From: Paracoccaceae bacterium
Lineage (GTDB): Bacteria; Pseudomonadota; Alphaproteobacteria; Rhodobacterales; Rhodobacteraceae
Reading direction: 5' to 3'
NCBI GenBank assembly: GCA_009920775.1
Contig: RFZI01000003.1
Coordinates: 1-52,343, forward strand
DNA length: 52,343 nt
Below, piece after piece: positions 7,746-51,155 of the stretch. Within the stretch, counting starts at the first letter, position 1; each line of letters begins with the position of its first letter. The notes beneath the pieces are model-generated. The model saw nothing but the letters and a program-made list of their open reading frames with translations. It had not been told where the DNA came from and ran no database searches. Position numbers and translations under genes: made by a program.

Positions 7746-7896
7746 CTACCTCAAACTCCGTTGCCGATCAGACTGTTGCTGCGGCACTTTCCGAATTATC
7801 TTTACCCAACAGAACAAACTAAGGGTGTTTATTCAACGTTTGTTCGGTCTATCAAGAAGAAACTGACAGGCACTCGATCAGGTAATTGTTTCGGAA

Positions 7897-9474: not shown

Positions 9475-9482
9475 GGACCAAG

Positions 9483-9851
9483 ATGGATTTCACCTACGAC
9501 CCGCAAAACATCTTTGCCCGCATCCTGCGCGGCGAGATCCCGAACAAGACCGTTTTTGAAAACGATCACGCGCTCGCGTTTCACGATATCGCCCCGCAAG
9601 CGCCTGTCCATGTGCTGGTGATCCCCAAGGGCGCCTATGTCAGCCTCGATCACTTTGCCCGCGATGCCTCGGCCGAAGAACATTTCGGCTTCATGCAGGC
9701 TGTGGCCGAGGTGTGCCGGATCACCGGCGTCGACGCCGGCTTCCGTGCCATCTCCAACACACGCGCGCACGGACGGCAGGACGTGCCGCATTACCACCTG
9801 CACATCCTCGGCGGGCGTCAGCTTGGCCTGATGCTCGACGACGCGGGCTAA
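9483..9851 (+). CDS. HIT family nucleotide-binding protein (HINT-like)
   Basis: 122 residues, the usual HINT size. The histidine triad HYHLHILGG is near the C-terminus, and the N-terminal IFARILRGEIPNK and DIAPQAPVHVLVIPK match the HINT family of purine nucleoside phosphoramidases. The start follows GAGGACCAAG. It begins 8 nt after the glycosyltransferase and ends in a 4-nt convergent overlap with the PfkB kinase gene. Confidence 0.93.
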   Translation: MDFTYDPQNIFARILRGEIPNKTVFENDHALAFHDIAPQAPVHVLVIPKGAYVSLDHFARDASAEEHFGFMQAVAEVCRITGVDAGFRAISNTRAHGRQDVPHYHLHILGGRQLGLMLDDAG

Positions 9852-25289: not shown

Positions 25290-26086
25290 TCCTTCACCAG
25301 CCCCGCCATCTGCTTGGTGATATAACGGATCGCCTTTTCCGGCATGATCCGTATCAGAGCGTTCAGCATCTTCGCATCCTTGCCGATCAGCACATGAAGC
25401 CTGTTGGCCTCAATCCCGTCTAGGATGATCCGCGCCGCCTCGGGCGCGGGCACTGGTTTCATGCTCTTGGCAGCCTCGTCCGCACCTTTGGGCATCGGCA
25501 CGCCCGAGTTCTGCGAGATGTTGGTATCAACCCCGCCGGGCATCACCACCGTGACATGGACGTTGGTGCCAAGTGTCTCGGCGTAGATCCCTTCCGAGAG
25601 GAGCTTCACCGCCGCCTTGGAGGCGCCATACATCGTTTGCCCCGGAAAGGGGATAAAGCCGCCCATGCTCGAGACGTTGCAGATATGCGCCTCGGGCCGG
25701 GCCTTGAGGTGTGGGAAGAAGGCCTTGATCATGTGGATCTGGCTCCAGAGGTTCACATTGATCATCCGCTCGATCAATTCGTAGGACAGGTCGGCAAAAT
25801 CAATGAACGGCTGGATCACACCGGCGCAGTTGATGATCGCATCGACCTGACCGTGCTCGGCGATCACTTCCTCAGGCAACTCATGGACGCGCTTGCGATC
25901 GGACACATCGGCCACATGGGTCGAAAGCCGCTCGCCCGCCACCGCGCTGGTAAAGTTGGCCAAGCCCTCGGGCCGAAGATCGACCGCCGCGACCCGCGCA
26001 CCACGCGCCAGGAGCGCCAGCACCAACGCCCGCCCGATGCCGCTGCCTCCGCCGGTAACGACAAAGACTTTGTCCTTGATTTTCAT
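25286..26086 (-). CDS. Short-chain dehydrogenase/reductase (SDR)
   Basis: 266 residues from ATG 26086, placed 7 nt after GGAGGG. The NAD(P) motif TGGGSGIGRALVLAL, NNAG-type INCAGVIQPF, catalytic Ser in SSMGGFIPF and YGASK with catalytic Tyr/Lys are present, so it should be active. The C-terminal 60 residues are basic and hydrophobic (IRIMPEKAIRYITKQM). Substrate unknown. It is divergent from rplS and not clearly part of an operon. Confidence 0.9.
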   Translation of the reverse strand: MKIKDKVFVVTGGGSGIGRALVLALLARGARVAAVDLRPEGLANFTSAVAGERLSTHVADVSDRKRVHELPEEVIAEHGQVDAIINCAGVIQPFIDFADLSYELIERMINVNLWSQIHMIKAFFPHLKARPEAHICNVSSMGGFIPFPGQTMYGASKAAVKLLSEGIYAETLGTNVHVTVVMPGGVDTNISQNSGVPMPKGADEAAKSMKPVPAPEAARIILDGIEANRLHVLIGKDAKMLNALIRIMPEKAIRYITKQMAGLVKD

Positions 26087-26169
26087 GGTCACTCCCTCCG
26101 TGTTGCGGCGCTATTCTATCAGACCGTTAACGCCGCCAAATTGACCTTGCTCAAGTCGCACTCCGGGGC

Positions 26170-26198
26170 TTGAACGCGCCAGCCAACCCGCCTATACA
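26170..26198 (+). promoter_or_regulatory. Candidate sigma-70 promoter of rplS-rpmE
   Basis: TTGAAC, 17 bp, TATACA, within the 319-bp gap between the SDR and rplS. It would give a leader of about 200 nt before rplS. The leader has several GC-rich inverted stretches but no RNA family I recognise; autogenous control of the ribosomal protein genes is possible but not shown. Confidence 0.6.
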
Positions 26199-26405
26199 CC
26201 GCCCGTCCGGGGCTCGGCTGAGTCGTCCGGCTTTCTTTCTTTGCTCATCGGCCTGCTTTCTTCGGCGGGGTGGAGCGGAAGGAACGACGAATAAGGAACG
26301 TTGCCTGATCTCTGGCGGGCGCTGCGGCGACCCGGAAGAAGACCGAGAGCTCTGAGGCGCATCACCTTTGCGGAACAAACCGCAAGCAAAATAGGAGCGC
26401 ATCAG

Positions 26406-26792
26406 ATGGACCTGATCGCACAACTCGAGGCGGAACAAGTTGCCGCCCTTGGGAAGGACATTCCCGATTTCAAAGCTGGCGACACCATTCGCGTCGGCTA
26501 CAAGGTGACCGAAGGCACCCGCACCCGCGTTCAGATGTATGAAGGCGTTTGCATCAGCCGCAAGAACGGCTCGGGCATTGCCGGTTCGTTCACCGTTCGC
26601 AAGATTTCGTTCGGCGAAGGCGTGGAGCGCGTGTTCCCGCTGCACTCGACCAACATCGACAGCATCACAGTTGTCCGTCGTGGTCGTGTCCGCCGCGCCA
26701 AGCTCTACTACCTCCGTTCGCGTCGCGGCAAATCGGCCCGTATCGCCGAGGTGAGCAACTACAAGGCGCTCGACAGCGCCGCTGACGCATAA
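26406..26792 (+). CDS. rplS: 50S ribosomal protein L19
   Basis: 128 residues, ATG after AGGAGCGCATCAG. L19 signatures: [53 protein letters not shown] and the basic C-terminus [15 protein letters not shown]. Starts a two-gene unit with rpmE (11 nt gap). Confidence 0.98.
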
Positions 26793-26803
26793 GGAGCACC
26801 ACT

Positions 26804-27025
26804 ATGCGCAAAGGTATTCACCCCGACTATCACATGATCGACGTCAAGCTCGTCGACGGCACCGTGGTCCAGATGAAATCGACCTGGGGCAAAGAGGGCG
26901 AGCAAATGTCGCTCGACATCGACCCCTCGGTTCACCCGGCCTGGACCGGCGGTTCGTCCCGCCTGCTCGACACCGGCGGCCGCGTGTCGAAGTTCAAGAA
27001 CAAATACGCTGGCCTCGGCTTCTAA
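26804..27025 (+). CDS. rpmE: 50S ribosomal protein L31 (cysteine-free form)
   Basis: 73 residues: [19 protein letters not shown] and [15 protein letters not shown], with [13 protein letters not shown] at the end. There is no cysteine, so this is the zinc-independent C-minus type. Ends at a terminator 22 nt downstream. Confidence 0.97.
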
Positions 27026-27046
27026 GCCTGACGCCTCCGGAAAACG

Positions 27047-27079
27047 AAACGCCGGCCCTCGGGGCGGCGTTTTGCATTT
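27047..27079 (+). terminator. Rho-independent terminator after rpmE
   Basis: Stem AAACGCCG / CGGCGTTT with GC-rich loop, then TTGCATTTC. Confidence 0.75.
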
Positions 27080-27124
27080 CTGGGGATTGAGGCTAGGGTT
27101 TCTCAAACAATAGCAGAGGCCCCT

Positions 27125-27460
27125 ATGTCCTTCCCCGATTTCTTCAACCAGTTCCCGCTTCTCGATGTTCCGATCTCGGAAGATATCGTCACCATCCGGG
27201 CGATCCGGTCGGATCAAGGGCTCGTGGCGTTCTTCACTTTTCACAAGGATTTCGAGATGCCGCCACATTCCCACGGGTTTCAGTGGGGCACGGTGATCAA
27301 GGGCCAGCTCACCTTCACCATCGACGGCAATTCGACAACCTATGGCCCCGGCGACACATATTTGCTCGACCGGAGCGAGGTTCACGCCGTCAAGGCTGCT
27401 GCGGGAACGCAGGCTCTCGATGTCTTCGAAGAGCCTGACCGTTATCCGCTGAAAGCCTAG
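27125..27460 (+). CDS. Small cupin-domain protein
   Basis: 111 residues, a single cupin barrel. Motif 1 is PPHSHGFQWGTVIKGQ (H48, H50, Q53) and motif 2 contains YGPGDTYLLDRSEVHAV (H87), so a metal site of His/Gln residues is likely. The glutamate of classic cupin motif 1 is replaced by Gln. Function unknown; small single cupins act as isomerases, dioxygenases or sensors. Convergent with the rhlE gene, overlapping by 4 nt. Confidence 0.85.
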   Translation: MSFPDFFNQFPLLDVPISEDIVTIRAIRSDQGLVAFFTFHKDFEMPPHSHGFQWGTVIKGQLTFTIDGNSTTYGPGDTYLLDRSEVHAVKAAAGTQALDVFEEPDRYPLKA

Positions 27461-28752
27461 GCCTTCGCCGCGCGATTGCCCTTGGCGCCACGGCGCTTGA
27501 AGCCGCCGGGCTTGCCCATTGCGGGCTTCGCGCCAGCGGGGCGGGCGCCCTGCCCCTGACCACCCGGCTTGCCACCGCCACGACGCGGCCCGCCGCGGCG
27601 CTTGGGCTGCTCGGGGGCGACCGGATCCCACGGACGGCCCGAGGCCACAGGGATCGACGCTTTCATCGCCTTCTCGATATCGCTCAGATAGCCCATCTCG
27701 TCGGGCGCGCAGAGCGCGATCGCCATGCCATCGGCACCCGCGCGCGCGGTGCGGCCGATGCGGTGGACATAGTTTTCCGGCACGTTCGGCAGCTCGTAGT
27801 TATAGACGTGCTTCACGCCGGGAATATCGAGGCCACGGGCGGCCACATCGGTCGCCACCAGCACCCGCACCTTGCCTTCGCGGAATTCCTGAATGGCGCG
27901 TTCGCGCTGGCCCTGGCTCTTGTTGCCGTGGATCGCGGTCACGGCAAAGCCTTTGGCCGCGAGGTTGCGCGAGAGCTTCTCCATGCCGTGCTTGGTGCGG
28001 CCAAAAACAAGCGCCAGCTCGTCGCGGTGTTTGTCGAGAAGCTCCACCAGCAGGTCCATCTTGGCGGCGGCGCCGACGAAATGGACGCATTGCTCGATCT
28101 TGTCGGCGGCCTTGCCCGGCGGGTTGACCTGAACGCGGATCGGGTTCGAGAGGTAAGCCTCGCTCAGTTCGGCCATCTGCTTGGGCATGGTGGCCGAGAA
28201 AAGCATCGTCTGACGCTCTTTCGCCAGAAGCGGCGCGATGCGGCGCAGGGGTTGGATGAAGCCCAGATCAAGCATCTGGTCGGCCTCGTCGAGAACGAGG
28301 AAGCGGGTCTCGTCAAGACGGACAGCCTTGCGGTCGATCAGGTCGAGCAGGCGGCCGGGGGTGGCCACGAGAACGGCGGTGCCTTTCTCGAGCTTGCGCA
28401 TCTGGCCGGTGATGCCGGCGCCGCCGACCACGAGAACGATCTTGAGGTGGCTGCCTGCGGCAAACATCATCAGATTGTCGGCGATCTGCTTGGCCAGCTC
28501 GCGGGTCGGCGCAAGGATCAGCGCCTTGGCCGATTTGGGCGAGGGGCGCCCGCCTTCTTTCAGAAGCGCATCGAGCATCGGCAGGCCGAAAGCTGCGGTT
28601 TTGCCGGTTCCGGTCTGGGCAAGGCCCATCACGTCGCGGCCATTCATGGCGTGCGGGATGGCCTGCGCCTGAATCGGCGTCGGGTCGGTGATGCCGTTTT
28701 CGGCAAGTTTCGCGATGAGGCGGGGCGCGAGGCCCAGCATATCAAAATCCAT
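27457..28752 (-). CDS. rhlE: DEAD-box RNA helicase, RhlE type
   Basis: 431 residues from ATG 28752 (AGGA upstream); the frame is open further but without supporting homology. All motifs are present: Q motif PTPIQAQAIPHAM, AQTGTGKTAAF, PTRELA, DEADQMLDLGF, FSATMP, and HRIGRTARAG. The C-terminal 60 residues are a basic Gly/Pro/Lys tail (KRRGGPRRGGGKPGGQGQG) that would bind RNA. Likely in ribosome assembly and cold-shock RNA handling. Confidence 0.93.
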   Translation of the reverse strand: MDFDMLGLAPRLIAKLAENGITDPTPIQAQAIPHAMNGRDVMGLAQTGTGKTAAFGLPMLDALLKEGGRPSPKSAKALILAPTRELAKQIADNLMMFAAGSHLKIVLVVGGAGITGQMRKLEKGTAVLVATPGRLLDLIDRKAVRLDETRFLVLDEADQMLDLGFIQPLRRIAPLLAKERQTMLFSATMPKQMAELSEAYLSNPIRVQVNPPGKAADKIEQCVHFVGAAAKMDLLVELLDKHRDELALVFGRTKHGMEKLSRNLAAKGFAVTAIHGNKSQGQRERAIQEFREGKVRVLVATDVAARGLDIPGVKHVYNYELPNVPENYVHRIGRTARAGADGMAIALCAPDEMGYLSDIEKAMKASIPVASGRPWDPVAPEQPKRRGGPRRGGGKPGGQGQGARPAGAKPAMGKPGGFKRRGAKGNRAAKA

Positions 28753-29112
28753 AATATTTTCCTGTCTGGCGCAGCCCATAGGCATACGCACATCATGCGC
28801 CACGGCTTTAGCAGCCGCAGCATCGGCAAAGGGTTGCGCCAAGGGCTGACAGGCGCACCGAATTGCGCGCACACCGCCAAAGCGCGGCACCCCTGCGTGA
28901 CTGTGGGAACCAGTTGATCCGTTGCTCTCGCTCGGCCACATCATTGCGGGCGGCGCACTGCTCACGCGGCAGGAAGCATCGGTCTTAGGGCACATGGGGC
29001 TTGGGCGACACAAAGTCAAGCCAAGGAATTGCGGCTTATGCTGCGCTGCCGCGCTTCCCCTTGGGCGCGGCTCAAACTATACTGGCGCCAAGAAACTATC
29101 GGGGAAGAGCAC
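28753..29112. other. 360-bp intergenic region between divergent rhlE and mipZ
   Basis: No credible gene. It should hold both promoters: near mipZ, AAACTATACTGG offers a -10 box (TATACT, about 29076-29081) with only a weak -35. GC-rich throughout; no repeat or RNA fold was recognised. Confidence 0.5.
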
Positions 29113-29922
29113 GTGGCGCATATCATCGTCGTGGGCAACGAAAAGGGCGGCGCGGGCAAGTCGACCGTGTCGATGCACGTAGCGACGGCGCTCGCGCGGA
29201 TGGGCCACAAGGTCGGGACACTCGATCTCGATCTGCGGCAGAAAACACTCGCCCGTTATATGCACAACCGGAATCGGTTTCTTCAGGCCGAAGGGCTGGA
29301 CCTGCCGACACCGAGCTATCACGAACTGCCCGAAATCGATCAATCTAGCCTCAAACCGGGTGAGAACGTTTTCGATCATCGTCTTTCGATGGCTGTGGCG
29401 GGCCTTGAGCCGGACGTGGATTTCATCCTGATCGACTGCCCCGGCAGCCACACGCGCCTGAGCCAAGTCGCCCATTCGTTGGCCGATACGCTCTTCACGC
29501 CCCTGAACGACAGCTTCGTCGATTTCGATCTTCTCGCCCATGTCGACAATGACGGCGAGACGATCACCGGCCCCTCCGTCTATGCCGAGATGGTCTGGAA
29601 TGCCCGCCAGCTTCGGGCGCAGGCCGGCTTGCCGCCGATCGACTGGATCGTGGTCCGCAACCGCCTTGGCGCGCAGAACATGGTCAACAAGCAGAAGATG
29701 GAAACCGCGCTGACCAAGCTCTCGCGGCGCATCGGCTTCCGGCTTGCCCCGGGCTTCAACGAGCGCGTGATCTTCCGCGAGCTGTTCCCGCGCGGCCTGA
29801 CGCTCCTTGATCTGCGCGATATCGGCGTCTCGCAGCTCAATATCTCCAACGTCGCTGCGCGGCAGGAGCTTCGGGATCTGATGAAAGCGCTGAATCTGCC
29901 GGGCGTCAGCGTCGATTTCTGA
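29113..29922 (+). CDS. mipZ: Cell-division positioning ATPase MipZ (ParA/MinD family)
   Basis: 269 residues from GTG 29113 (GGGGAAGAG upstream), beginning MAHIIVVGNEKGGAGKSTVS with the deviant Walker A, then DLDLRQKTLARY and ILIDCPGSHTRLS. The C-terminal part (KLSRRIGFRLAPGFNERVIFRELFPRGLTLLDL) matches MipZ rather than plasmid ParA. MipZ forms a gradient from ParB at the poles and blocks FtsZ ring assembly there; it is confined to alphaproteobacteria. A membrane protein gene follows after 22 nt. Confidence 0.93.
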   Translation: MAHIIVVGNEKGGAGKSTVSMHVATALARMGHKVGTLDLDLRQKTLARYMHNRNRFLQAEGLDLPTPSYHELPEIDQSSLKPGENVFDHRLSMAVAGLEPDVDFILIDCPGSHTRLSQVAHSLADTLFTPLNDSFVDFDLLAHVDNDGETITGPSVYAEMVWNARQLRAQAGLPPIDWIVVRNRLGAQNMVNKQKMETALTKLSRRIGFRLAPGFNERVIFRELFPRGLTLLDLRDIGVSQLNISNVAARQELRDLMKALNLPGVSVDF

Positions 29923-29944
29923 TCCATTTTTCGGCCCGGTTCGT

Positions 29945-30934
29945 ATGTCGCTTATGAGTAAGATTTCGCCCCTCTGGATCGCCTTCTGGACCGCCCTTCT
30001 CGGCGCGGTTCTCGCGACATTCGCCATTCTGACCCTTAAGCCCTTCCTCGATCAGGTGCCTCACCTGCCGGATCAAGGCGCGGCCTGGTATTACTGGAAG
30101 CGGATCGACCCCGACTGGGCGAGCCGCGCCACAGCCTGGGGCTTCTATCTCGCGCATCAGTTCTTCTTCTGGGGTCTGATCTGGTGGGCCGTGCGGCATC
30201 GTGAGGAGCTGCGTGATCGGGGCCGGATGCATCCCGTGAACTGGATCGGCCTGATTGGCACCTTCGCCTTCATCGGCCTGCATTATTTTCAAACGGCGAT
30301 CTGGTATGACGGTCTGGCGCAAGACACCTCGGTGTTTTCCTCGCAGATTTCGGTGATCTTCCTCCTGATTATCGTGCTGATGATCGAAGCCCCGCGCCGC
30401 GGCCTTTTCTTCGGCTATGGCGGCGGCTGGTTGAAAACGCTGCGCCCTATGCTCATCCGCTATCACGGCTATTATTTCGCCTGGGCTGTGACCTACACCT
30501 ATTGGTTCCACCCGATGGAAACCACGCCGGGCCACCTTCTGGGCTTCTTCTACACCTTCTTGCTGCTCATTCAGGGGGCCTTCGTATTCACCCGCGTTCA
30601 CACCAACAAATGGTGGACCGTGACGCTTGAGCTCTCGGTCCTCGTGCATGGTGTCACCGTGGCGCTTGTGGCCGGGCAGGAGATTTGGCCGATGTTCCTC
30701 TTCGGATTTGCAGCGATGTTCATCGTCACGCAGATGCACGGCCTCGGCCTGAGCCGACTTGTCCGCGGCGTGATCCTCGCTCTGTTCGCAGGCTCGGTCT
30801 ATCTGGTCTATTCCGAAAGGGGATGGGCACAGCTGAACGAGATCATCCGCATCCCGGTGATCGACTATGGCCTGCTGGCGATCCTTGGTGGCGTGGCGAT
30901 CTGGATCACCAGACGCCGGCTCAAAGCGGCCTAG
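29945..30934 (+). CDS. Conserved-looking polytopic membrane protein, function unknown
   Basis: 329 residues with about nine hydrophobic helices (for example LWIAFWTALLGAVLATFAIL and FLLIIVLMIEAP) and many aromatic residues (YYWKR, AHQFFFWGLIWWAVRHREE, HGYYFAWAVTYTYWFHP). The His residues in HQFFFWG, HYFQ and HGYY could bind a cofactor. No known family is recognised. It lies 22 nt after mipZ and is probably co-transcribed; ATG 29945 or 29954 may be the start. Island sequence begins about 105 bp downstream. Confidence 0.8.
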   Translation: MSLMSKISPLWIAFWTALLGAVLATFAILTLKPFLDQVPHLPDQGAAWYYWKRIDPDWASRATAWGFYLAHQFFFWGLIWWAVRHREELRDRGRMHPVNWIGLIGTFAFIGLHYFQTAIWYDGLAQDTSVFSSQISVIFLLIIVLMIEAPRRGLFFGYGGGWLKTLRPMLIRYHGYYFAWAVTYTYWFHPMETTPGHLLGFFYTFLLLIQGAFVFTRVHTNKWWTVTLELSVLVHGVTVALVAGQEIWPMFLFGFAAMFIVTQMHGLGLSRLVRGVILALFAGSVYLVYSERGWAQLNEIIRIPVIDYGLLAILGGVAIWITRRRLKAA

Positions 30935-31039
30935 CGCCGGACGAGCGCGAGCTGACAAGAATCACTTGCGCGATGCAGCTACACCCCGAGAGCTGAGGCA
31001 ACGGCTCAGGGGCAACACTCAGAAGTTTATCGGGAGAAG

Positions 31040-31055
31040 TGGCGGACTGGAGAGG
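31040..31055 (+). repeat. Candidate att site: 16-bp copy of the tRNA-Arg 3' end
   Basis: TGGCGGACTGGAGAGG matches the tRNA 3' end at 36431-36446 (TGGCGGACTGGGGAGG) in 15 of 16 positions, same orientation. This is what integration at the tRNA would leave at the far end of the insert. Confidence 0.7.
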
Positions 31056-31158
31056 TGTATAACTAATGTTCTAGCGCATTCTATAGTCTCGGCAATCGTC
31101 TATAAATTATAGCTTTCTAAGAACCTTGATCTTCCTTACTGTTCTAGAAGTTCCCGTC

Positions 31159-31195
31159 TGTTCCAGTGCATCTGTGGGGACGAATGTGGGGACGA
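31159..31195 (+). repeat. 37-bp repeat, copy A, next to the integrase remnant
   Basis: Contains two tandem copies of TGTGGGGACGAA/TGTGGGGACGA after TGTTCCA. Copy B at 36341-36377 has the same orientation and matches 32 of 37. Copy A ends 5 nt before the integrase start codon. Could be integrase arm-type binding sites or an element edge. Confidence 0.6.
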
Positions 31196-31199
31196 GTAG

Positions 31200-31355
31200 A
31201 TGGCCAAGCAACTAACCGCGGCATTTGTGAATAGCGTCAAGGACGCAGGCAAATACTTTGATGGTAGTGGCCTAGGCTTGATCCTGCAGCACTTCAACCT
31301 GCCGAAGCTTCGATACGATCTCTTCGGGCTTCTCTCGCTTTCCAGCCATCGCTGA
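31200..31355 (+). pseudogene. Tyrosine integrase, N-terminal remnant (about 26 codons)
   Basis: The frame gives MAKQLTAAFVNSVKDAGKYF then DGSGLG, which is the start of the Arm-DNA-binding domain (DUF4102-like) of phage/island integrases, normally about 400 residues. After about codon 26 the frame runs into the inverted IS3-type fragment and stops at 31355, so the rest is lost. The cut is at about 31272-31280. It lies just inside the att-like repeat, the usual place of the integrase gene. Confidence 0.65.
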
Positions 31356-31413
31356 TCCTCCAATTTTTGGGACAATCTATCCCAGTTGGTGGACCACTTT
31401 CAGGGGGCTACTC
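31275..31413 (-). mobile_element. IS3-family insertion sequence, left-end fragment
   Basis: On the minus strand an ATG at 31349 starts MAGKREKPEEIVSKLRQVEV, the N-terminus of an IS3-family OrfA, and the frame ends after about 25 codons where the integrase sequence begins. The bases upstream (GTAGCCCCCTGAAAGTGGTCCACC on the minus strand, split about 31390-31413) look like the terminal part of such an element. All of the rest (OrfA end, OrfB, right end) is missing. The insertion or a later deletion destroyed the integrase. Confidence 0.65.
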
Positions 31414-31429
31414 CATTCTGATGATTTCG

Positions 31430-31462
31430 CAAAAGAAATCGGGCGCCACTGAGGCGCCCGAT
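31430..31462 (-). terminator. Rho-independent terminator of the proteorhodopsin gene
   Basis: A perfect 10-bp stem ATCGGGCGCC / GGCGCCCGAT with a 5-nt loop, followed on the minus strand by TTCTTTT. It starts 23 nt after the stop codon, so the proteorhodopsin gene is a single-gene transcript. Confidence 0.9.
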
Positions 31463-31485
31463 CAAACAAGCTTTGATTGTCCTAA

Positions 31486-32190
31486 TTAGCCGTGCGCGTG
31501 TTCGCTGTCTCTGACGGCCAAATTCCAAATGATTAGGCCGAACAAGATTTTGTTCACAAAGTCTGCAAGGTTGTAGACAGCGTTTAACGTTCCTTGGTCA
31601 ACCCCGCCCGTAAAATAACCAAGCACATAGCCGATTGGGTAGATTGCCCAACCAACCAAAACAATCCACCGCATGGAGTTAAAGGCGGATCGTACCGAAG
31701 GCTCTGCATTAGCAGCGGCTCTGCCGGCCTCACCACCATAGATTTCCCATATGATGATGACCCAGCCAACCATACCGATAGCAAAACCCAACGCGGCGGA
31801 CATGATACCTGCTTCGCCAAAGTAGCCGAAGACAAGCATAACCAAGGTTCCAACAAGTAGTCTTACAAAAGACTGAACGCCAACCTTCGCCCCAACTGCA
31901 CGCAAAATGATGAAGAACTCAATCATTAGAAGAGGCACTGTTATCAGCCAATCAATGTAGCGATAAACAATTGGCGTCGTTTGCTCCGCAACCCAGAAGT
32001 CGCGCATGTAGTCATAATGCACTCCCGCAACCAGAGTGACGAGGCCTGCCACGAGCAAAGACAGACGCCAATGTTGTTTGACCCTTAAGCCTTCGTAGAG
32101 GAAGAAGACTGTCGATGCGACCATCGCTATTGACACGAGCCAGAATGTAACACCGACAAAATCGTCGCTTTGTAGAAACAGTTTTTCCAT
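31486..32190 (-). CDS. Proteorhodopsin (green-type, light-driven proton pump)
   Basis: 234 residues, seven hydrophobic helices. The helix C motif YRYIDWLITVPLLMIEF gives D80 (proton acceptor), T84 and E91 (proton donor), the DTE set of outward proton pumps. L88 is at the position where Leu gives green and Gln gives blue absorption. H58 corresponds to the His that pairs with the acceptor Asp, and K214 in NLADFVNKILFGLIIW is the retinal Schiff-base Lys. There is no separate signal peptide, unlike SAR86-type pumps. Alone in its transcript; the retinal enzyme must come from elsewhere. Codon composition differs from the flanking genome, indicating transfer. Confidence 0.97.
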   Translation of the reverse strand: MEKLFLQSDDFVGVTFWLVSIAMVASTVFFLYEGLRVKQHWRLSLLVAGLVTLVAGVHYDYMRDFWVAEQTTPIVYRYIDWLITVPLLMIEFFIILRAVGAKVGVQSFVRLLVGTLVMLVFGYFGEAGIMSAALGFAIGMVGWVIIIWEIYGGEAGRAAANAEPSVRSAFNSMRWIVLVGWAIYPIGYVLGYFTGGVDQGTLNAVYNLADFVNKILFGLIIWNLAVRDSEHAHG

Positions 32191-32673
32191 TTCGTTTGCT
32201 CCCTGTTACCCGAACTCTATCCAGTTCGAACATTCGTGATACGCAGCAACGTAGAAGTTGGATCACAGTCAATCAACGCGAACCAACACAGCGGGTGTTA
32301 ATGTGTACCAGCTGCGGCGGCGCAAGTCGTGAAACCCCCCATCCCAGACTATCGGCGGTATGGGTCGGGGCCGGAGGTGGCTAGGATCAAACCAAGATCC
32401 GTGATAAAGACCGCATGAGGGTGAAAATAATCGCCATCCAACATACTCCCAAAAAACTGGGCCGAGCAGTAAAGGCCTTTCTTTGCCTTGTCGGCATCTA
32501 CCAGCGGCTAGACATTGCGCCGTCGGGCGGTTTTGACGGTTAGCATGAGTGTGAAGACTAATGGCGATAGCAAAATATTGAGAGATCCATCACAATAACG
32601 AGGCAATCACATAGCTAATTGCATGCATTTCTGTTGAGAGGCGTGGCTTGGATCCGGCGCATAGAGTAGGACA
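32191..32673. other. 483-bp gap between divergent proteorhodopsin and VOC genes
   Basis: Should contain both promoters. On the minus strand TTGATT, 17 bp, TACGTT (about 100 bp before the proteorhodopsin start) is a weak candidate. GTTCGAAC at 32224-32231 is a perfect 8-bp palindrome. A 42-codon open frame at 32415-32543 has no good start signal and is not called. Confidence 0.4.
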
Positions 32674-33102
32674 ATGAAACTAGAATTCCACCACATCAAC
32701 TATGTAAGTCACGACGTAGATAGCTTGCACAAGTTCTACACCAAGATACTTGGCCTGACCGACATCCCAGTATCGACGTTTCCTCGACCGGAGGCCACCT
32801 CGACTAGCGGTTATGATGGCGCGATCAGGTTTGCTACCGACGGCAAGATTCAGATGCATCTTGCTACCAAAGACTTCAATGTCGCCTTCAAGAACGGCGA
32901 AGTGATCAATCCTGTTGAACGAGGTCATATCGCATTCCGAACAGATGACATTGTCGGCCTGAAGTCGCTACTTGATGCGCATTCCATTCCCTATTCAGAT
33001 TATGGCACTGCCTTTGCCGAGGAGTGGCATCAGGTGTTCTTCCATGACCCAGAGGGCAATGTCATTGAAGTGCATCAAGCGGTTCGGATGACTGAGGGCT
33101 AA
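32674..33102 (+). CDS. VOC superfamily protein (glyoxalase/bleomycin-resistance fold)
   Basis: 142 residues, one VOC pair of beta-alpha-beta repeats. LEFHHINYVSHDVDSLHKFY and WHQVFFHDPEGNVIEVHQ are typical, with possible metal ligands H7, H62 or H85, and E132. Such proteins include glyoxalase I, fosfomycin-type thiol transferases and dioxygenases; which of these applies is not visible. Short TAGGA ribosome-binding site. With the GST two genes downstream it could form a glutathione-linked detoxification pair (inference). Confidence 0.9.
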   Translation: MKLEFHHINYVSHDVDSLHKFYTKILGLTDIPVSTFPRPEATSTSGYDGAIRFATDGKIQMHLATKDFNVAFKNGEVINPVERGHIAFRTDDIVGLKSLLDAHSIPYSDYGTAFAEEWHQVFFHDPEGNVIEVHQAVRMTEG

Positions 33103-33177
33103 AGACCAGAAATCGACAGCAGAGTAGCCTTAGCATCGTCCCATATCGATCACACACGGGGGGCTAAATACCCTTGC

Positions 33178-34710
33178 TTAGAGCGGTTCGCCCTGATCCA
33201 ATCTGATAAGCAGTTCCTCCGCGTCGGCCATGATCTGTGCCCTATCGCTCGCATTGCGGTTTTCCCACGATCGACAAATCACGGCCATTCTGGGATTGGA
33301 ACGGAACTGGTCAGCGTGACGGTCTATGAAGTGCCAGTAGAGCACGTTGAAGGGACAGGCCATCCGACCTGACTTTGCCCTCACGTCATACACACAGCCT
33401 GCGCAGTAATCGGACATTCGGGCGATATAGGCGCCGGAGGAGACATAAGGTTTGGATGCCAAAACACCACTATCAGCATACTGGCTCATGCCAATGGTGT
33501 TCGGCGCCTCTACCCATTCAAAAGCATCGATATAGACAGATAAATACCATTCGTGGACCTGCTGCGGATCGATACCAGCCAAAAGCGCAAAATTCCCAGT
33601 GACCATCAAGCGCTGGATATGGTGGGCGTAGGCGTGGCTTCGAGCCTGGGCCACGGCCTCCTTCATACACTGCATTCCAGTTTCGCCACCCCAATAGACA
33701 TCAGGCAGCTTGCGGCTATGTCCCAAGGCATTGCTAGAGACGTAGTCGGGGCCCTTAAGAAAATAGATCCCACGCACGTATTCGCGCCAGCCGATGATCT
33801 GCCGGATGAAACCTTCAACGGCGTTTAGCGGTGCCGCGCCGAGCGTCCACGCTGAGACCGCACGTGCGCAGACTTCAAGCGGGGATAGAAGTCCAATGTT
33901 GAGGTAAGGCGAGATCACAGAGTGCCACAGGGTCGGCTCACCACGGATCATCACGTCCTGATAGTCCCCGAAGTGCGGCAAGTTATGCGTGATAAAATGG
34001 TCTAGGACCTGCAGCGCCTGATCGCGGTCTGTGGCATAGCTAAAGGGTCGCAGATCTCCAAAGTTGGCCGCAAATCGTGCCTCCACAAGGTCAAGCACCG
34101 CACTTACGTGTTTATCTGGCGCGAAGGCGGGCGGCGGGACAGGTCGGACATCTATTGGAGCTACTTTACGATTGTCACTGTCGAAGTTCCACTTGCCACC
34201 GGCGGGTTTATCTCCCTCCATCAGCAGGCCTGTCTTGCGTCTGACGTCGCGATAGAACCACTCCATTCGAAGTTCTTTGCGGTCCTTGGCCCAGTTTGCA
34301 AAATCACTGGTCGAAGTGATGAAGCGGCTGTCTGGCAACATTGTAAGAGGTAAAGGAAAATCAGTCAGCTCAGTGTTCAGCCGCCATTCGCCCGGCTCGG
34401 TGGCGATAACCTTGGTCGCGCCGAAGTTGGTCGCATGGTGCAGAAGTTCGCCAGTTATCGAGCCTGAGTTTCTGGGGTCGTCAAGCTGTGTATAGGCAAC
34501 AGTCCACCCTTCTTGCCGAAGCCACTCGGCGTACTTTCGCATTGCGGACAGAACCAGAGCGATCTTTTTAGGGTGATGAGGGACATAAGTGGCTTCGGCC
34601 ATGACTTCGGCCATGACCACTACATCTCGATCTTTGTTCCCTTTTTGCAGGGCAGCGATGTTAGGCGAAAGTTGGTCGCCAAGTATTAGGATAAGGCGGG
34701 GCTCTTTCAC
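33178..34710 (-). CDS. phrB: Prokaryotic (6-4) photolyase / FeS-BCP cryptochrome (PhrB/CryB type)
   Basis: 510 residues from GTG 34710 (GGAG upstream), giving MKEPRLILILGDQLSPNI, the expected start; the frame is open to 34848 but the extra part is unlike the family. The 4Fe-4S cysteines of this class are all present: one in GMQCMKEAV, then, 88 residues on, C-X2-C-X12-C in DYCAGCVYDVRAKSGRMACP, the same spacing as Agrobacterium PhrB. FAD-region motifs RQIIGWREYVRG and MVTGNFALL are seen. It repairs UV (6-4) photoproducts or acts as blue-light photoreceptor. Low-GC island gene. Confidence 0.95.
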   Translation of the reverse strand: MKEPRLILILGDQLSPNIAALQKGNKDRDVVVMAEVMAEATYVPHHPKKIALVLSAMRKYAEWLRQEGWTVAYTQLDDPRNSGSITGELLHHATNFGATKVIATEPGEWRLNTELTDFPLPLTMLPDSRFITSTSDFANWAKDRKELRMEWFYRDVRRKTGLLMEGDKPAGGKWNFDSDNRKVAPIDVRPVPPPAFAPDKHVSAVLDLVEARFAANFGDLRPFSYATDRDQALQVLDHFITHNLPHFGDYQDVMIRGEPTLWHSVISPYLNIGLLSPLEVCARAVSAWTLGAAPLNAVEGFIRQIIGWREYVRGIYFLKGPDYVSSNALGHSRKLPDVYWGGETGMQCMKEAVAQARSHAYAHHIQRLMVTGNFALLAGIDPQQVHEWYLSVYIDAFEWVEAPNTIGMSQYADSGVLASKPYVSSGAYIARMSDYCAGCVYDVRAKSGRMACPFNVLYWHFIDRHADQFRSNPRMAVICRSWENRNASDRAQIMADAEELLIRLDQGEPL

Positions 34711-35059
34711 GGGACCGGCTGCTCCGCTAACAACATGAGGGTAAATGCGAAGCGCATAGCTTTCATGGCTAGACCCTAGACACCCCAACGACAGCAGAAA
34801 AGTGTGATTCCGTCCACCTAGCAGTAACGGCCTAGATCTCAACCTCATGTACCAAATTGCTTATGGGAAAATTGAGAGTGATTGCACCCCAACCATTAGC
34901 CCTTTGCACCTGCTACGAGGTGCTTTGGCACCAATTTTGGGAACACTTAGATGAGCATTGACTTGTCTAGCGTTTGAGCAAGTTCTGGCCTTCGAAGTGT
35001 TCGATGTGTGGGCTATCTAGCCTTGACTAATTTCGGCAGAGATTTCGTAAGGAGCTGCA
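34711..35059. other. 349-bp gap between divergent photolyase and GST genes
   Basis: AT-rich, no credible gene. A small hairpin GGTGC-TTTG-GCACC at 34919-34932 precedes AATTTT. GTAAGGAGCTGCA directly precedes the GST start. No clear -35/-10 pair could be fixed. Confidence 0.4.
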
Positions 35060-35917
35060 ATGCCATCGCAGGTTAAATATACACCCCCAAAGGTTTGGAG
35101 ATGGGATCAGCCCAGTGGCGGTGCTTTTGCATCCACCAACCGGCCAATAGCCGGTGCGACCCATGATAAGGATCTGCCACTCGGTAAGCATCCATTCCAG
35201 CTATATTCGCTAGCAACGCCGAACGGGGTTAAAGTGACGATCTTATTCGAAGAGCTGTTAGAAGCTGGCCACGAGGGGGCGGAATATGATGCTTGGCTGA
35301 TCGATATCGGAGGTGGGCAGTTTGGCTCGGGGTTTGTCGAAGTTAATCCTAATTCCAAAATCCCAGCATTGATGGACTATTCGGGGCCGACCCCCCTTCG
35401 CGTCTTCGAATCCGGTTCGATACTGCTGCACTTGGCGCAAAAATTCAGTGCCTTTATGCCAATTGATCCGAGCGCTAGAGTTGAAACCATAAACTGGCTC
35501 TTCTGGCAGATGGCATCGACTCCCTACCTAGGAGGCGGATTTGGTCATTTTTACAAGTATGCTCCCGAAAAGCTCGAATATCCGATTAACCGCTTTGCCA
35601 TGGAGACAAAGCGGCAACTTGACGTCTTGGACCGTCGTCTCTCGGACGTTGATTGGGTTGATGGCAATGGATACTCCATAGCCGACATAGCGATTTGGCC
35701 GTGGTATGGAAATCTTGTGTTGGGCCGTACCTATGACGCAGCCGAGTTCCTTAACGTCGATGGGTATGCCAACGTGCTTCGCTGGGCGCGGGCAATCGAC
35801 GCCCGTCCTGCTGTCCAAAGAGGGCGTAAAGTGAATCGAAATTGGGGTGAGCTTTGGGAGCAGATGCCAGAGCGCCACGATGCTTCTGATTTCGAAAGGG
35901 TTCCCAAACAAACTTAA
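35060..35917 (+). CDS. Glutathione S-transferase, YghU-like (Nu class)
   Basis: 285 residues, ATG after AAGGAG. The N-terminal extension (PPKVWRWDQPSGGAFASTNR) and thioredoxin-fold start FQLYSLATPNGVKVTILFEE are typical of the YghU group, which works as glutathione-dependent disulfide-bond reductase/peroxidase. NPNSKIPALMDYSG holds the cis-Pro, FESGSILLHLAQKF the glutathione site, and the all-helical C-domain ends IDARPAVQRGRKVNR. It could deal with peroxides or disulfides made under light stress. Confidence 0.95.
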   Translation: MPSQVKYTPPKVWRWDQPSGGAFASTNRPIAGATHDKDLPLGKHPFQLYSLATPNGVKVTILFEELLEAGHEGAEYDAWLIDIGGGQFGSGFVEVNPNSKIPALMDYSGPTPLRVFESGSILLHLAQKFSAFMPIDPSARVETINWLFWQMASTPYLGGGFGHFYKYAPEKLEYPINRFAMETKRQLDVLDRRLSDVDWVDGNGYSIADIAIWPWYGNLVLGRTYDAAEFLNVDGYANVLRWARAIDARPAVQRGRKVNRNWGELWEQMPERHDASDFERVPKQT

Positions 35918-36340
35918 AGCAGTCGCCCTAGAACCCTCAGCTACCCGCACAGGTCCTCAACTCAAAGCATCTGTGTCTGACTTGCTTTTTTGGGTCTGGT
36001 GACTTGGATGCAACTTCCTACCGCCACAAGCGTAGCGCCAATACATTAGATCGCTGAGGCGCAAGGCGGCCTTGGTTGCAGATCAAGAATCAGCAACTCA
36101 CATCGGGAGCAAACTCACCCAACAACGCAAACCCCGCGCGGCGCCTTCGGTCTCAGCCTCAGGCGCCACCTTGCGTCTACGGGCAGCCGCAACACCGCAC
36201 ACCACCGCGAGCGACGCGCCCGCGCGCGGGTGCGGTCGCCCCCTGTGGAGGCGGTTTCGGTGGGGGCGGAGGCTGAGAGGAGGATGGGAAGGGGCGGAAG
36301 GGCGCGAAGGACGGCAACCGACTGCTCTTTCGTTTCCGCA
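35918..36340. other. Gap between GST and the tRNA-proximal repeat; GC-rich block without gene
   Basis: The first part (35918-36110) is AT-rich like the island. About 36130-36330 is abruptly GC-rich on both strands with open frames of low-complexity Arg/Pro/Ala that look like shadows. No gene, RNA or repeat is supported. The block may be old host flank or a remnant of an earlier element. Confidence 0.5.
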
Positions 36341-36377
36341 TGTTCCACCGCGTTTGTGGGGACGGATGTGGGGACGA
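36341..36377 (+). repeat. 37-bp repeat, copy B, near tRNA-Arg
   Basis: Matches copy A (31159-31195) in 32 of 37 positions, same orientation, with the same double TGTGGGGACG. It ends 53 bp before the tRNA 3' end. Confidence 0.6.
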
Positions 36378-36430
36378 AATAGTCATCAGGCCGTCAAGAG
36401 GCTGATTTAAAACAAGTTTTGAGGATTAAT

Positions 36431-36507
36431 TGGCGGACTGGGGAGGATTCGAACCCCCGACCCCTTGATTCGTAGTCAAGTACTCTATCCAACTGAGCTA
36501 CCAGTCC
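36431..36507 (-). tRNA. tRNA-Arg (anticodon ACG)
   Basis: 77 nt. The acceptor stem GGACTGG pairs with CCAGTCC, followed by G73 and an encoded CCA. D arm AGCTCAGTTGGATAGAGT, anticodon stem CTTGA/TCAAG around CTACGAA (anticodon ACG), and T loop TTCGAAT are regular. The island starts right at its 3' end. Confidence 0.97.
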
Positions 36508-36570: not shown

Positions 36571-37962
36571 TCATTTTCCCGACGCGAGCTCGGCTTTGGG
36601 CAGGCAGATGATGAATTCCGTGCCGCTTTCGTTCGTCCGCCCAAGCTCCAGCCGGCCCCCATGCCCCCGCACCAGCTCGGCCGCGATGACAAGGCCGAGG
36701 CCCGCGCCGCCTTTGGATACGCCACCTTGAAACGCCTGAAACAGATGCTCGCGGGCGCGCTGGGGCAGGCCGGGGCCGGTGTCGGCCAAGGTGATCCACC
36801 ACTGGGCATCGTCCTCATGGGCGTGAATGCTGATCTCGCCCGGCTTGCCGGTTGCCATGATCGCCTGCCGGGCGTTGCGCACGAGGTTTGACAGGACGCG
36901 GTAGAGCTGCTCGGCATCGGCGCGGATCGTCAGGTTGCCTGGAATGTCCTCCGAGAAACTCAGCTCATACTCCCCTGCCGCAAGGCGTTCGCCATCGAGC
37001 ACCTCGGCGACAACAGAGGCAAGGCTCACCCGGCCGAGCTTGGGCGGGGCTTCGTCGGCGCGGCCAAACGCGAGAGTGTTCTCGCAAAGATGCACCGCGC
37101 GGGTGATCGAGTTGACGAGCTTGGGCGCGAGGCGCTGCACGGCGGGATCTTCCGAGGCTTCGATCCGGTCGACGAAAAGCTGGGCCGAAGAAAGGATATT
37201 CCGCAGGTCGTGGCTGACCTTGGCGACGCCCTCGCCAAGCTGCGCGAGCCGCTCGCGCTGGCGCAGGGCGGCGGTGAGCTGCTGCTGCATCATCTGCAGC
37301 GCCTCTTCCGCCTCGCGCAGCTCGATCAGCCCAGCGGTCGGTGCGATGATCCGGCGGGCATCTTCCGGCGCCATGGCATAGCTTTGCATATGCCCCACAA
37401 CGCCCTTGATGGGTTTCACAAGGAAGGCCCGCACCGCAACGAAAAGAAGCGCCGCGGTGATGATCGAGATCACCGCGGAGAGCATCAGGATATTCAAGCC
37501 ATAGTCGATCATCGCGGTGCGGAGCGGCGCCTGCTCCATCGTCACCTCGATCTCTTGCCCGCCGCCCTGAACCGGCATCCCGATCACCCGGATCACCGGA
37601 TCACCCGGTTCGAAGAGGGTCATCATAGCGTCACGCATCAGCGCCCAAGCCGAAGCGCCACGCAGGTCATAGGTCGCCTCGGCCGGCCCGGGCACTTCGG
37701 AGGAAAGGATCAGCTGGCGCACTTCGTCGCGGCGCAGCACCACGTTGAAGACGCCAGCATTTGTCAGAAGCTCTTTCTCGAGATCCTCCGAGATCATGTC
37801 ATCGGCCAGAAGCGAGAGTGAGGCGATCTGCGCCCGCTCGAGGCGCAGAAGGAGGTAATCCTGCCGGAAGCGGGCCACGGAAGGCACGAAGATCAGCACC
37901 TCCGCCAGCATGACGAAGACGACCGTCAGAACCAGAAAACGCCCCGAGAGCGTGTTCAGCAT
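36571..37962 (-). CDS. Sensor histidine kinase
   Basis: 463 residues. TM1 at about 8-28, a periplasmic loop, TM2 at about 153-176, HAMP-like segment (VKPIKGVVGHMQSYA), coiled link, H box KVSHDLRNILSSAQ with the phospho-His, N box NLVRNARQAI, and G boxes DTGPGLP and GGAGLGL. The signal is probably periplasmic but unknown. No response regulator gene is next to it (tRNA on one side, a flavoprotein on the other), so the partner is elsewhere. Confidence 0.93.
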   Translation of the reverse strand: MLNTLSGRFLVLTVVFVMLAEVLIFVPSVARFRQDYLLLRLERAQIASLSLLADDMISEDLEKELLTNAGVFNVVLRRDEVRQLILSSEVPGPAEATYDLRGASAWALMRDAMMTLFEPGDPVIRVIGMPVQGGGQEIEVTMEQAPLRTAMIDYGLNILMLSAVISIITAALLFVAVRAFLVKPIKGVVGHMQSYAMAPEDARRIIAPTAGLIELREAEEALQMMQQQLTAALRQRERLAQLGEGVAKVSHDLRNILSSAQLFVDRIEASEDPAVQRLAPKLVNSITRAVHLCENTLAFGRADEAPPKLGRVSLASVVAEVLDGERLAAGEYELSFSEDIPGNLTIRADAEQLYRVLSNLVRNARQAIMATGKPGEISIHAHEDDAQWWITLADTGPGLPQRAREHLFQAFQGGVSKGGAGLGLVIAAELVRGHGGRLELGRTNESGTEFIICLPKAELASGK

Positions 37963-48569: not shown

Positions 48570-49081
48570 CCCTGCGCCTCATCCTGACTCGCCATGCCAA
48601 GTCCGGCTGGGACGATCCCGACTTAGAGGATTTCGACCGCCCGCTGACCGAGCGCGGGCGCCGCTCGGCCACGGCGATCGGACGCTGGCTTTGGGAAAAG
48701 GGCTATCGGCCCGACCTGATCCTCTGCTCCGCCGCCGAACGGACGAGGGCGACGCTCGACCTGATCCTTGCCGAATGGCCCGAGCGCCTCGAGGTGAGCT
48801 ATCGTCAGGCGCTCTATCACGCCTCTGCGCGGGGTATCCATGATGTGATGGCGGGGACCGATGCCCAAACGGTCATGGTCGTCGGCCACAACCCCGGTAT
48901 CGGCACGCTGGCCTGCTGCATGGTCGCCAAGCGGCCCGACCATCCTGATTTCGGCCGCTACCCGACGGGCGCGACCGCAATTCTCGATTTCGACGCCGAG
49001 GACTGGCGCAGCATCAAGGCCGGCACCTGCGCTGATTTCATAGTCCCCCGCGACCTGTTGAACGACGCCGAAAACGACTAG
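48566..49081 (+). CDS. SixA-like histidine phosphatase
   Basis: 171 residues from ATG 48566. The RHG-type motif LILTRHAKSGWDD holds the catalytic His, LTERGRRSATAIG and VVGHNPGIGTLAC the second. This branch contains SixA-type protein-His phosphatases, so it may act on a phosphorelay. Last gene of the argB string; convergent with bztD. Confidence 0.85.
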   Translation: MTLRLILTRHAKSGWDDPDLEDFDRPLTERGRRSATAIGRWLWEKGYRPDLILCSAAERTRATLDLILAEWPERLEVSYRQALYHASARGIHDVMAGTDAQTVMVVGHNPGIGTLACCMVAKRPDHPDFGRYPTGATAILDFDAEDWRSIKAGTCADFIVPRDLLNDAEND

Positions 49082-49126
49082 GGGCGCGCGGTCTCCCGCA
49101 CGCCGCCATAGTCCATTCCCGAAAGA

Positions 49127-49831
49127 TCAGTGACCGAGAATCTGGCTCAGGAAGAGCTTGGTCCGGTCGTTCTGCGGGTTCTTGAAGAACTCTTCCGGCT
49201 CGTTCTGTTCGACGATCTGGCCCTGATCCATGAAGATCACGCGGTTGGCGACCTGACGGGCAAAGCCCATCTCATGGGTCACGCAGAGCATGGTCATACC
49301 ATCTTCCGCTAGCTCGATCATGGTGTCGAGAACCTCTTTGATCATCTCGGGGTCGAGTGCCGAGGTCGGCTCGTCGAAAAGCATGATGCGCGGCTTCATG
49401 CAGAGCGAACGGGCGATGGCCACACGTTGCTGCTGACCGCCCGAAAGCTGCCCTGGGTATTTGTGGGCCTGCTCGGGGATTTTCACTTTCTCAAGGAAGT
49501 GCATGGCGATTTCCTCGGCCTCGCGCTTGGGCGTCTTGCGGACCCAGATCGGCGCAAGAGTACAATTCTCAAGGATCGTCAGATGCGGAAAGAGGTTGAA
49601 GTGCTGAAAGAGCATACCAACCTCGGAGCGGATCTTGTCGATGTTCTTGAGGTCCGAGGAAAGCTCGGTCCCATCAACGATGATCGAACCTGCCTGATGT
49701 TCTTCCAGACGGTTGATGCAGCGGATCAGCGTCGATTTACCGGATCCCGAAGGTCCGCAGACCACGATGACCTCATCCGTCACCTTCATGTGGCTGCGGT
49801 CGATTTCGCGTTCGATAGCGAGTTCGGACAT
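49127..49831 (-). CDS. bztD: Amino-acid ABC transporter ATP-binding protein (BztD/AapP), with internal deletion
   Basis: 234 residues; the family is about 260. The N-terminus [20 protein letters not shown] joins directly to [17 protein letters not shown], skipping about 30 residues that normally hold the aromatic A-loop (KWYG.FHVL) and first beta strands. Junction about 49761-49775. Walker [16 protein letters not shown], and [11 protein letters not shown] remain, in frame. Without the A-loop, ATP binding should be impaired; otherwise it would drive acidic/amide amino-acid uptake. The 705-nt frame is intact, so this is not a simple frameshift. Confidence 0.85.
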
Positions 49832-49843
49832 GACAAGTCTCCC

Positions 49844-51154
49844 TTAACGATGTTCACGCTGGAGTTTTTTCTCCAGGTAAAGTGAGTAGCGGCCCATGCT
49901 GTAGCAGAAGATGAAGAACATCAGGCCGATGAAGATGAAAAGCTCCCAATAGATGCCCTGCCAATCGGTCGAGGCCCGGATCGCACCAGCAAGGCCGATA
50001 GGATCAAGAAGACCGATGAATACTACCAGCGTCGTATCTTTGAAAAGTCCGATGAAGGTGTTGACGATACCGGGGATCGAGATCTTGAGCGCCTGCGGTA
50101 GAATGATGAGGCGCATTGAAAGCCAATAATCCAAACCAAGCGCGTCTGCGGCCTCATACTGCCCCCTGGGAAGCGCGGCCAAACCGCCACGGATGACCTC
50201 GGCGATATAAGCAGCCGAGAAGAGGGTCACCATGATGATCACCCGCAGCATCAGGTCAAAATTCGTGCCCGGGGGCAGGAAGTAGTTGAGCAGAAGCGAC
50301 GCGGTGAAGAGCCACGCAATCAGAGGAACGCCGCGGATAACCTCGATGAACCCGACCGAAACATATTTGATCAGGAAGAGGTTTGACTGACGGCCCAAAG
50401 CCAGAAGGATGCCCAGCGGCAGCGACAGAACGATGCCTGCGATACCGATGATCACGGACAGGGTGAAGCCACCGAATTCCTTGGATTGGACCTTGGGAAG
50501 CTCGATCGGGATAATGCCGCTAAATGCGCCGGAAACCGGACCGTGCAGAACGCTCCAATACATTATCGGCGCCGCAATTGCAGCAAGAATTGCCAATAGG
50601 CTCGATCCGATCGAGGAGGACACGACGCGGTAGGCGACGAACCCTGCCAGGAAGCCAAGCGCCACAGACACTGCCACCCAGATTGAGCCGCCCCAAAGCA
50701 GCCAGACCAAACCGAAGGGCGCCGCAGCAGTTCCCAAGAGAAGCTTTCGGGGCAGTGCCGCGAAGAGGACCGGCATGATCGACCCAAGGAAAAGGAACAG
50801 CGCCAAGATTGGCCGCCAATACCCATCACTGGGATAGAAGCCGAACAGGAGCTGTTGCCAGCGGTCAGAAATGACCGCGAAACAAGCCGCGGATGCCCCT
50901 TCTCCAAGGGTAGCATCCCTGATCTCGCGGCATTCGTTCAAGGAGCCGCCGCTCCAGATCGAATTATAGAACCACGGGAACATATGGCTGACTACAGTCC
51001 AGACGAACCAGACCGACAGAATAGTCAGCATCGCGTTGAGCCAGCTTGAGAACAGGTTCTCACGTAGCCACCGGATCACCCCAGTCTGACCCAGAGGCGG
51101 ATCTTGCGGAGCCAGCATTTCCTCGCGGACATAGCTAAGGTTTGCGTTGGTCAT
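49844..51154 (-). CDS. bztC: Amino-acid ABC transporter permease (BztC/AapM)
   Basis: 436 residues, normal length. Charged N-terminus, about eight membrane helices, and the permease loop FIEVIRGVPLIAWLF plus GLAALPRGQYEAADALGL (EAA motif), GRYSLYLEKKLQREHR end. Forms the channel with BztB. It begins after bztB with a 1-nt gap and precedes bztD by 12 nt. Confidence 0.94.
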   Translation of the reverse strand: MTNANLSYVREEMLAPQDPPLGQTGVIRWLRENLFSSWLNAMLTILSVWFVWTVVSHMFPWFYNSIWSGGSLNECREIRDATLGEGASAACFAVISDRWQQLLFGFYPSDGYWRPILALFLFLGSIMPVLFAALPRKLLLGTAAAPFGLVWLLWGGSIWVAVSVALGFLAGFVAYRVVSSSIGSSLLAILAAIAAPIMYWSVLHGPVSGAFSGIIPIELPKVQSKEFGGFTLSVIIGIAGIVLSLPLGILLALGRQSNLFLIKYVSVGFIEVIRGVPLIAWLFTASLLLNYFLPPGTNFDLMLRVIIMVTLFSAAYIAEVIRGGLAALPRGQYEAADALGLDYWLSMRLIILPQALKISIPGIVNTFIGLFKDTTLVVFIGLLDPIGLAGAIRASTDWQGIYWELFIFIGLMFFIFCYSMGRYSLYLEKKLQREHR

Positions 51155-51155
51155 T

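Follow-up and report, generated by a model that had tools for sequence, protein, structure and literature searches.

Features of the locus

The window analyzed here is the whole stretch of 52,343 nt, and all coordinates are positions in that window. An insert occupies 31040-36446, at the 3' end of a tRNA-Arg(ACG) gene, and its outer limits are two attachment cores that correspond to the end of this tRNA. The insert, its contents and its flanking genes comprise the following features.

29945-30934, plus strand: left flank gene (329 aa), known in 5 of 37 genomes, all of the same genus
31040-31055, plus strand: left attachment core, a 15/16 copy of the tRNA-Arg 3' end
31150-31195, plus strand: left end repeat, containing TGTGGGGACG twice
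31200-31289, plus strand: integrase remnant of DUF4102 type, the first 30 codons, remainder lost
31290-31415, minus strand: end fragment (126 bp) of an IS3-family element, 95.2% identical to a Phaeobacter inhibens plasmid copy
31486-32190, minus strand: green-type proteorhodopsin (234 aa), Pfam Bac_rhodopsin at 160 bits
32674-33102, plus strand: VOC superfamily protein (142 aa), Glyoxalase at 24.9 bits (cut-off 20.6)
33178-34710, minus strand: CryB-type FeS photolyase/cryptochrome (510 aa), DPRP domain, GTG start
35060-35917, plus strand: YghU-type glutathione-dependent disulfide-bond oxidoreductase (GST; 285 aa), NF008731 at 487 bits (cut-off 325)
36117-36430, no strand: tRNA-proximal element end, related to an element end in the congener G001
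36332-36377, inside the tRNA-proximal element end: right end repeat, containing TGTGGGGACG twice
36431-36446: right attachment core, identical with the 3' end of tRNA-Arg(acg)
36431-36507, minus strand: tRNA-Arg(acg), the integration target
36571-37962, minus strand: right flank gene (463 aa), 91-98% identical in four congeners, where it adjoins the same tRNA

The right flank gene is presumably histidine-kinase-like. The reading frames of all four cargo genes are open, with no internal stops.

Integration site and element ends

The first-pass annotation had described the region as bounded by the 3' end of tRNA-Arg(ACG) and a 15/16 copy of it, and had called it a dead integrative element. Both statements were borne out. 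The direct repeat of the 16-base core at 31040 and 36431 accounts for the only two sites in the whole genome with no more than one mismatch. No third copy was found in the window on the plus strand (up to three mismatches) or on the minus strand (up to two), and 40 pair-shuffles of positions 26001-36000 gave 13/16 at best.

Inside the cores lies a pair of 46-base end repeats with 83% identity. All four occurrences of the nine-mer TGTGGGGAC in the window lie within these two repeats, and the paired repeat pattern was found in two of 147 genomes, with two copies in the bacterium's own genome (G000) and one in the congener G001, all of them at this tRNA. The paired end repeats are most likely arm-type sites of the integrase. 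The stretch 36117-36430 is an element end and not cargo, and no plasmid copies of 35918-36431 were found. A paired repeat, TGTGGGGACGNNTGTGGGGACG, was also seen about 150 bp downstream of tRNA-Met on three near-identical IMG/VR viral contigs (L177, L178 and L179). Phage kinship of the element ends was considered and rejected, as there was no tRNA-Arg-end match among the matches listed on these contigs, and the repeat was taken as the same sort of motif rather than as kin.

The integrase reading frame begins directly after the left repeat pair, so that an integrase does stand beside one end of the insert, though as a 30-codon remnant only. The remnant scored 86 (BLOSUM62) against the N terminus of the DUF4102 integrase of locus L223, the search covering 384 ORFs from 50 loci, while 30 shuffled versions scored at most 43 against the same ORFs. 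In five of the eight integrase loci listed, a TGGCGGAGAG core, which resembles a tRNA end, precedes the integrase by roughly 100-200 bp, a layout like the one found here. Neither the profile libraries nor searches against plasmid and phage proteins gave a match to the 30-residue fragment. Beyond codon 30 the sequence switches to the end of the IS3 element. The matching Phaeobacter inhibens copy is annotated as an IS3 family transposase, and 51 plasmid records match the fragment. Because the IS3 fragment cuts the integrase to 30 codons, the element is dead, and it would be unable to excise or transfer.

Base composition and codon usage

The GC content (1-kb windows) is 0.49-0.55 inside the insert and about 0.60-0.65 in the adjoining sequence. 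The GC3 of the four cargo genes is 0.53-0.61, while 18 of 21 long ORFs outside the insert, chosen mechanically by length alone, have a GC3 of at least 0.65 (0.44-0.57 in the other three). The cargo genes are both intact and AT-richer, as first annotated. The plot of GC and codon usage proposed as a check gave a divided answer, since GC and GC3 are low in the cargo but a codon-adaptation-like score of 0.48-0.60 overlaps that of the same outside ORFs (0.43-0.82) and separates the two sets less well than GC3.

Two other stretches of the window are also low in GC. The first, at 7000-9500 (0.52-0.57), holds a single protein, Core-2/I-Branching enzyme plus DUF5928, at 7897-9474, and the second, at 49000-52000 (0.55-0.58), holds a transporter permease at 49844-51154. 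In view of these stretches, low GC alone is no proof of insertion.

The tRNA-Arg site in congeners

The same site was compared in four congeners (G001-G004). The bins of the genus, G000-G004, are 82-95% complete, and that of G000 itself is 82.6% complete. A search for an empty site in relatives had been suggested at the outset, and it found a near-empty one in G003 and other sequence in the remaining three. In G003, 60 bp separate the left flank gene from the tRNA; the contig stops inside the tRNA, where the contig with the right flank starts, and the two are joined only by a 31-base overlap. In G004 both flanks lie on one contig, which places the left flank gene in synteny with the tRNA, and about 3.1 kb of different sequence with a single core copy lies between them. 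Next to the tRNA of G001 comes an element end that is 69.5% identical to window positions 36101-36430 (242 of 348 alignment columns), and then an unrelated 277-aa ORF. The G001 contig with the left flank diverges from the window at 30313, leaving the left limit of the insert unseen. In G002 the end next to the tRNA is a different one that carries TGTGTGGAA repeats, and a separate contig has the left flank together with other ORFs.

Two further observations were made at these sites. On contig G001:C39 (L133), from position 1863, the left flank gene breaks at the equivalent of 30313 and enters a long ORF, presumably penicillin-binding-protein-like, which is either a rearrangement or an assembly join. 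Beside the same tRNA, G004 carries a 386-aa ORF (L123) and G002 carries ORFs that look related by eye (L132); we take these to be ATP-grasp-like, and they represent another local cargo.

The content of the tRNA-Arg site thus differs in all five genomes of the genus, and the site is an insertion hot spot. The pump, the photolyase and the VOC gene are absent from all four congeners. For the GST, congeners gave distant matches only, with best E values of 3.9e-32 to 1.4e-34, whereas the best members of the family reach 1e-119 to 1e-145.

The cargo genes

The proteorhodopsin has the residues expected of the green type, D80, L88, E91 and K214, which we take to be the proton acceptor, the tuning site, the proton donor and the retinal lysine, respectively. 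Its nearest solved chains are 9r22 and then the green proteorhodopsin 2l6x. Counting its own genome and paralogues, proteorhodopsin matches were found in 10 of 147 genomes. A 90-row tree makes the pump the sister of one from a Marivivens bin (support 100/98), and the two fall within a clade of 22 rows (99/99), of which the other 20 are gammaproteobacterial by record title. Between the two sister pumps dN is 0.08 and dS is too high to compute. A plasmid origin of the pump was rejected, the eight matching plasmid records all being below 60% identity. The protein would pump protons in the light, provided that the host imports retinal or produces it by a route other than the known one.

The start of the photolyase was moved from the ATG at 34848 (long ORF) to the GTG at 34710; the matches of relatives mostly begin near residues 40-51. 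Among solved structures the protein matches Rhodobacter sphaeroides CryB (3zxs) at 729 bits and PhrB at 592 bits. The DPRP domain, the near-full-length similarity to CryB and PhrB and four aligned cysteines, presumably the FeS cysteines, place it among the FeS-BCP/CryPro proteins, and it would be expected to repair (6-4) photoproducts. Photolyase matches occur in 69 of 147 genomes, and the VOC protein has matches in 25 of them (own genome and paralogues included in both counts). In all six relatives for which an upstream ORF was listed, a gene ends at the photolyase or a few bases from it. This gene, which we take to be short-chain dehydrogenase-like, is missing here. A remnant of it before the photolyase was suggested by a short likeness seen by eye and was rejected, as a translated search gave nothing significant among the matches listed. 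Plasmid photolyases (88 records) were likewise set aside, all being below 60% identity.

The VOC protein can be assigned at superfamily level only, since the NCBIfam models score well under their cut-offs. An identity as lactoylglutathione lyase (glyoxalase I) was rejected (TIGR00068, 21 bits against a cut-off of 120), and no relative of it was found among solved structures. The YghU-type protein matches the E. coli YghU structure 3c8e at 412 bits and would probably take part in thiol or peroxide chemistry that depends on glutathione. GST matches were found in at least 126 of 147 genomes, again with the own genome and paralogues counted. The best matches of the VOC protein, the photolyase and the GST are all in the host's own family.

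Single arrivals or one package

The first-pass annotation had proposed a single package, in which the four genes arrived jointly and are maintained jointly. This was not supported. When the positions of the genes were compared by eye in 147 genomes, with the GST taken from among the matches listed, no pair of the four was seen at 12 kb or less outside the window, and the origins of the cargo are mixed. The search of other genomes for the same gene set, which had been put forward as a check, therefore returned none within that distance. The nearest pair was a photolyase (33% identical) with a GST at 12.8 kb in G061, followed by a photolyase (36%) with a VOC gene at 13.9 kb in G081. This lack of close linkage elsewhere counts against a joint package and favors genes gathered singly at a hot spot.

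One way in which this may have happened is that the genes accumulated one by one through several insertions and deletions, with only some of them belonging to the element whose ends are visible. The different content of the site in each of the five genomes points in this direction, as do the IS3 fragment that separates the integrase remnant from the cargo, the photolyase without its usual upstream neighbor and the mixed cargo origins. However, the insert has two cores and one pair of end repeats only, so no second element is visible, and we regard the case for stepwise accretion as evenly balanced.

Retinal supply

Whether the pump gene is of use to its host depends on retinal, and it may be a useless passenger in a host that is unable to make it. 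Blh (PF15461) was not found in G000-G004, the bins being 82-95% complete, and was matched in 6 of 147 genomes. The phytoene-synthase family is present in four of the five genus members. The match in G000 is partial (70 bits), lies outside any carotenoid cluster and has a neighbor that is presumably citramalate-synthase-like, for which reasons it was not taken for CrtB. On the other hand, the pump gene is unbroken and keeps its key residues, the G000 bin is incomplete and the search for retinal genes covered Blh and the phytoene-synthase family. In addition, a working rhodopsin is described, in the available part of one report, from a bacterium without known retinal genes (PMC7734400), so the absence of Blh is no proof that the pump does not function. 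We consider a useless passenger the less probable state of the gene.

The lineage of the pump as a whole sits apart from Blh. An iterated profile, which recovers the control loci L137, L139 and L140, found Blh in none of the flanks of 21 pump-clade loci (up to 8 kb per side, several much shorter) and in those of 19 of 68 other rhodopsin loci. A speculative extension is that this Blh-distant lineage spread on tRNA-targeted islands, that a host without a known retinal enzyme uses the retinal of its neighbors or another route, and that the CryB photolyase and YghU on the same island stand alongside as sunlight protection. We think it improbable.

A possible light-and-stress module

The remaining possibility for a joint origin is that the four genes arrived together and were kept as one light-and-stress module, for example a photo-oxidative-stress set. 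All four are intact neighbors, and cryB of Rhodobacter sphaeroides is placed under RpoHII, the singlet-oxygen sigma factor, in the available parts of two papers (PMC3320616, PMC7074977). A DPRP photolyase stands beside the pump in 3 of 80 pump loci drawn from genome contigs (the best 80 of 130), though it is only 32-33% identical to the photolyase of the island, and a GST of 34-35% identity lies within 8 kb of the pump in 2 of the same 80. In L058, L062 and L069 (SUP05/Pseudothioglobus), three related gammaproteobacterial loci, a DPRP photolyase is arranged tail to tail with proteorhodopsin at a distance of about 230 bp.

The two divergent gene pairs noted earlier, pump with VOC and photolyase with GST, are a real arrangement. 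A promoter scan of the divergent gaps gave one TGATC-N16-20-TA match before the pump and one CTTG-type match before the GST; the patterns are loose, and the matches were judged to be at chance level by a rough estimate without a shuffled control. The failure to find a shared promoter motif in the gaps, the lack of any two cargo genes within 12 kb in the genomes compared by eye and the separate origin of the pump from the other three genes all speak against a module, which we consider unlikely.

Proposed history of the island

Taken together, the locus is very probably a decayed integrative island at the tRNA-Arg gene of a small-genome bacterium, with a cargo of four single genes from two or more sources. 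To judge by the kinship of its genes, the host probably belongs to the Rhodobacteraceae. This reading is supported for several reasons. First, the cores are unique, the end repeats stand at this tRNA and G003 has a near-empty site. Secondly, an integrase remnant and an IS3 fragment are present where the element begins. Third, GC and GC3 are low in genes that are nonetheless intact. Lastly, the tree places the pump with a foreign lineage. Several points stand against it. The integrase fragment has 30 residues and matches neither a profile library nor a plasmid or phage protein. The G003 site is one-sided, with its 31-base overlap join, and the left boundary is out of view in G001. In addition, no known retinal gene was found, and the codon-adaptation-like score overlaps that of outside ORFs. 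An assembly chimera in the metagenome bin, which is fragmented into 319 contigs, is scarcely credible, given that the junctions coincide with the tRNA-end repeat, the integrase remnant and the end repeats, and that the right end has a relative beside this tRNA in G001.

The history of the decayed island may be pictured as follows. A tyrosine integrase of the DUF4102 type would have recombined the core of the element with the 3' end of tRNA-Arg, so that the tRNA stayed whole on the right and its 15/16 copy came to lie at the opposite end. Insertion of an IS3 element and a subsequent deletion, which we infer from the junction, would then have stripped away almost the entire integrase and locked the remainder in place. 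The pump would derive from a gammaproteobacterial lineage that also reached Marivivens, whereas the CryB photolyase, YghU and the VOC protein would be genes typical of the host's family. Most likely each cargo gene would act alone and help the cell to cope with sunlight or oxidative stress.

Proteorhodopsin is known to be transferred, but what carries it can rarely be seen. In the present case the two ends of the element, its target and a near-empty site were all observed. The tRNA-Arg hot spot can be compared across five genomes of one genus, and the island raises the testable question of whether a pump gene is useful to a host in which a known retinal-making gene was not found.

Comparison with known systems

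Two of the cargo genes can be compared with solved proteins. The photolyase resembles Rhodobacter sphaeroides CryB (3zxs), the solved protein that it matches best, along almost all of its length and in four aligned cysteines. It differs from CryB-type relatives, six of six of which have the presumed dehydrogenase-like neighbor, in that it stands without this gene. The YghU-type protein is like E. coli YghU (3c8e), passing the NCBIfam equivalog NF008731, but it is island-borne and its function is read from sequence.

No publication on this particular island was found among the open-licence papers listed. A rhodopsin operon at tRNA genes has already been described, and the island reported here is a further member of this known kind. 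The available part of a study of Great Lakes nitrifiers reports the acquisition of a pump and of photolyases (PMC9239080). In Tardiphaga, as far as the accessible text of that report goes, a xanthorhodopsin operon lies near tRNA-Lys / tRNA-Glu with a tyrosine-type integrase and repeats (PMC7701988). The two cases share a proton-pump gene gained beside a tRNA, a tyrosine-type integrase, repeats, IS elements and a relative without the pump. They differ in that Tardiphaga has a whole operon and an integrase gene that is present, whereas here a lone proteorhodopsin lies in a dead element among unrelated neighbors. In the Roseobacter group, proteorhodopsin was gained by transfer according to the part of the account available (PMC12661815). 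As in that account, proteorhodopsin is patchy and mostly of the green type, with transfer as the explanation. That part of the account names neither a vehicle nor an integration site, whereas both are visible here.
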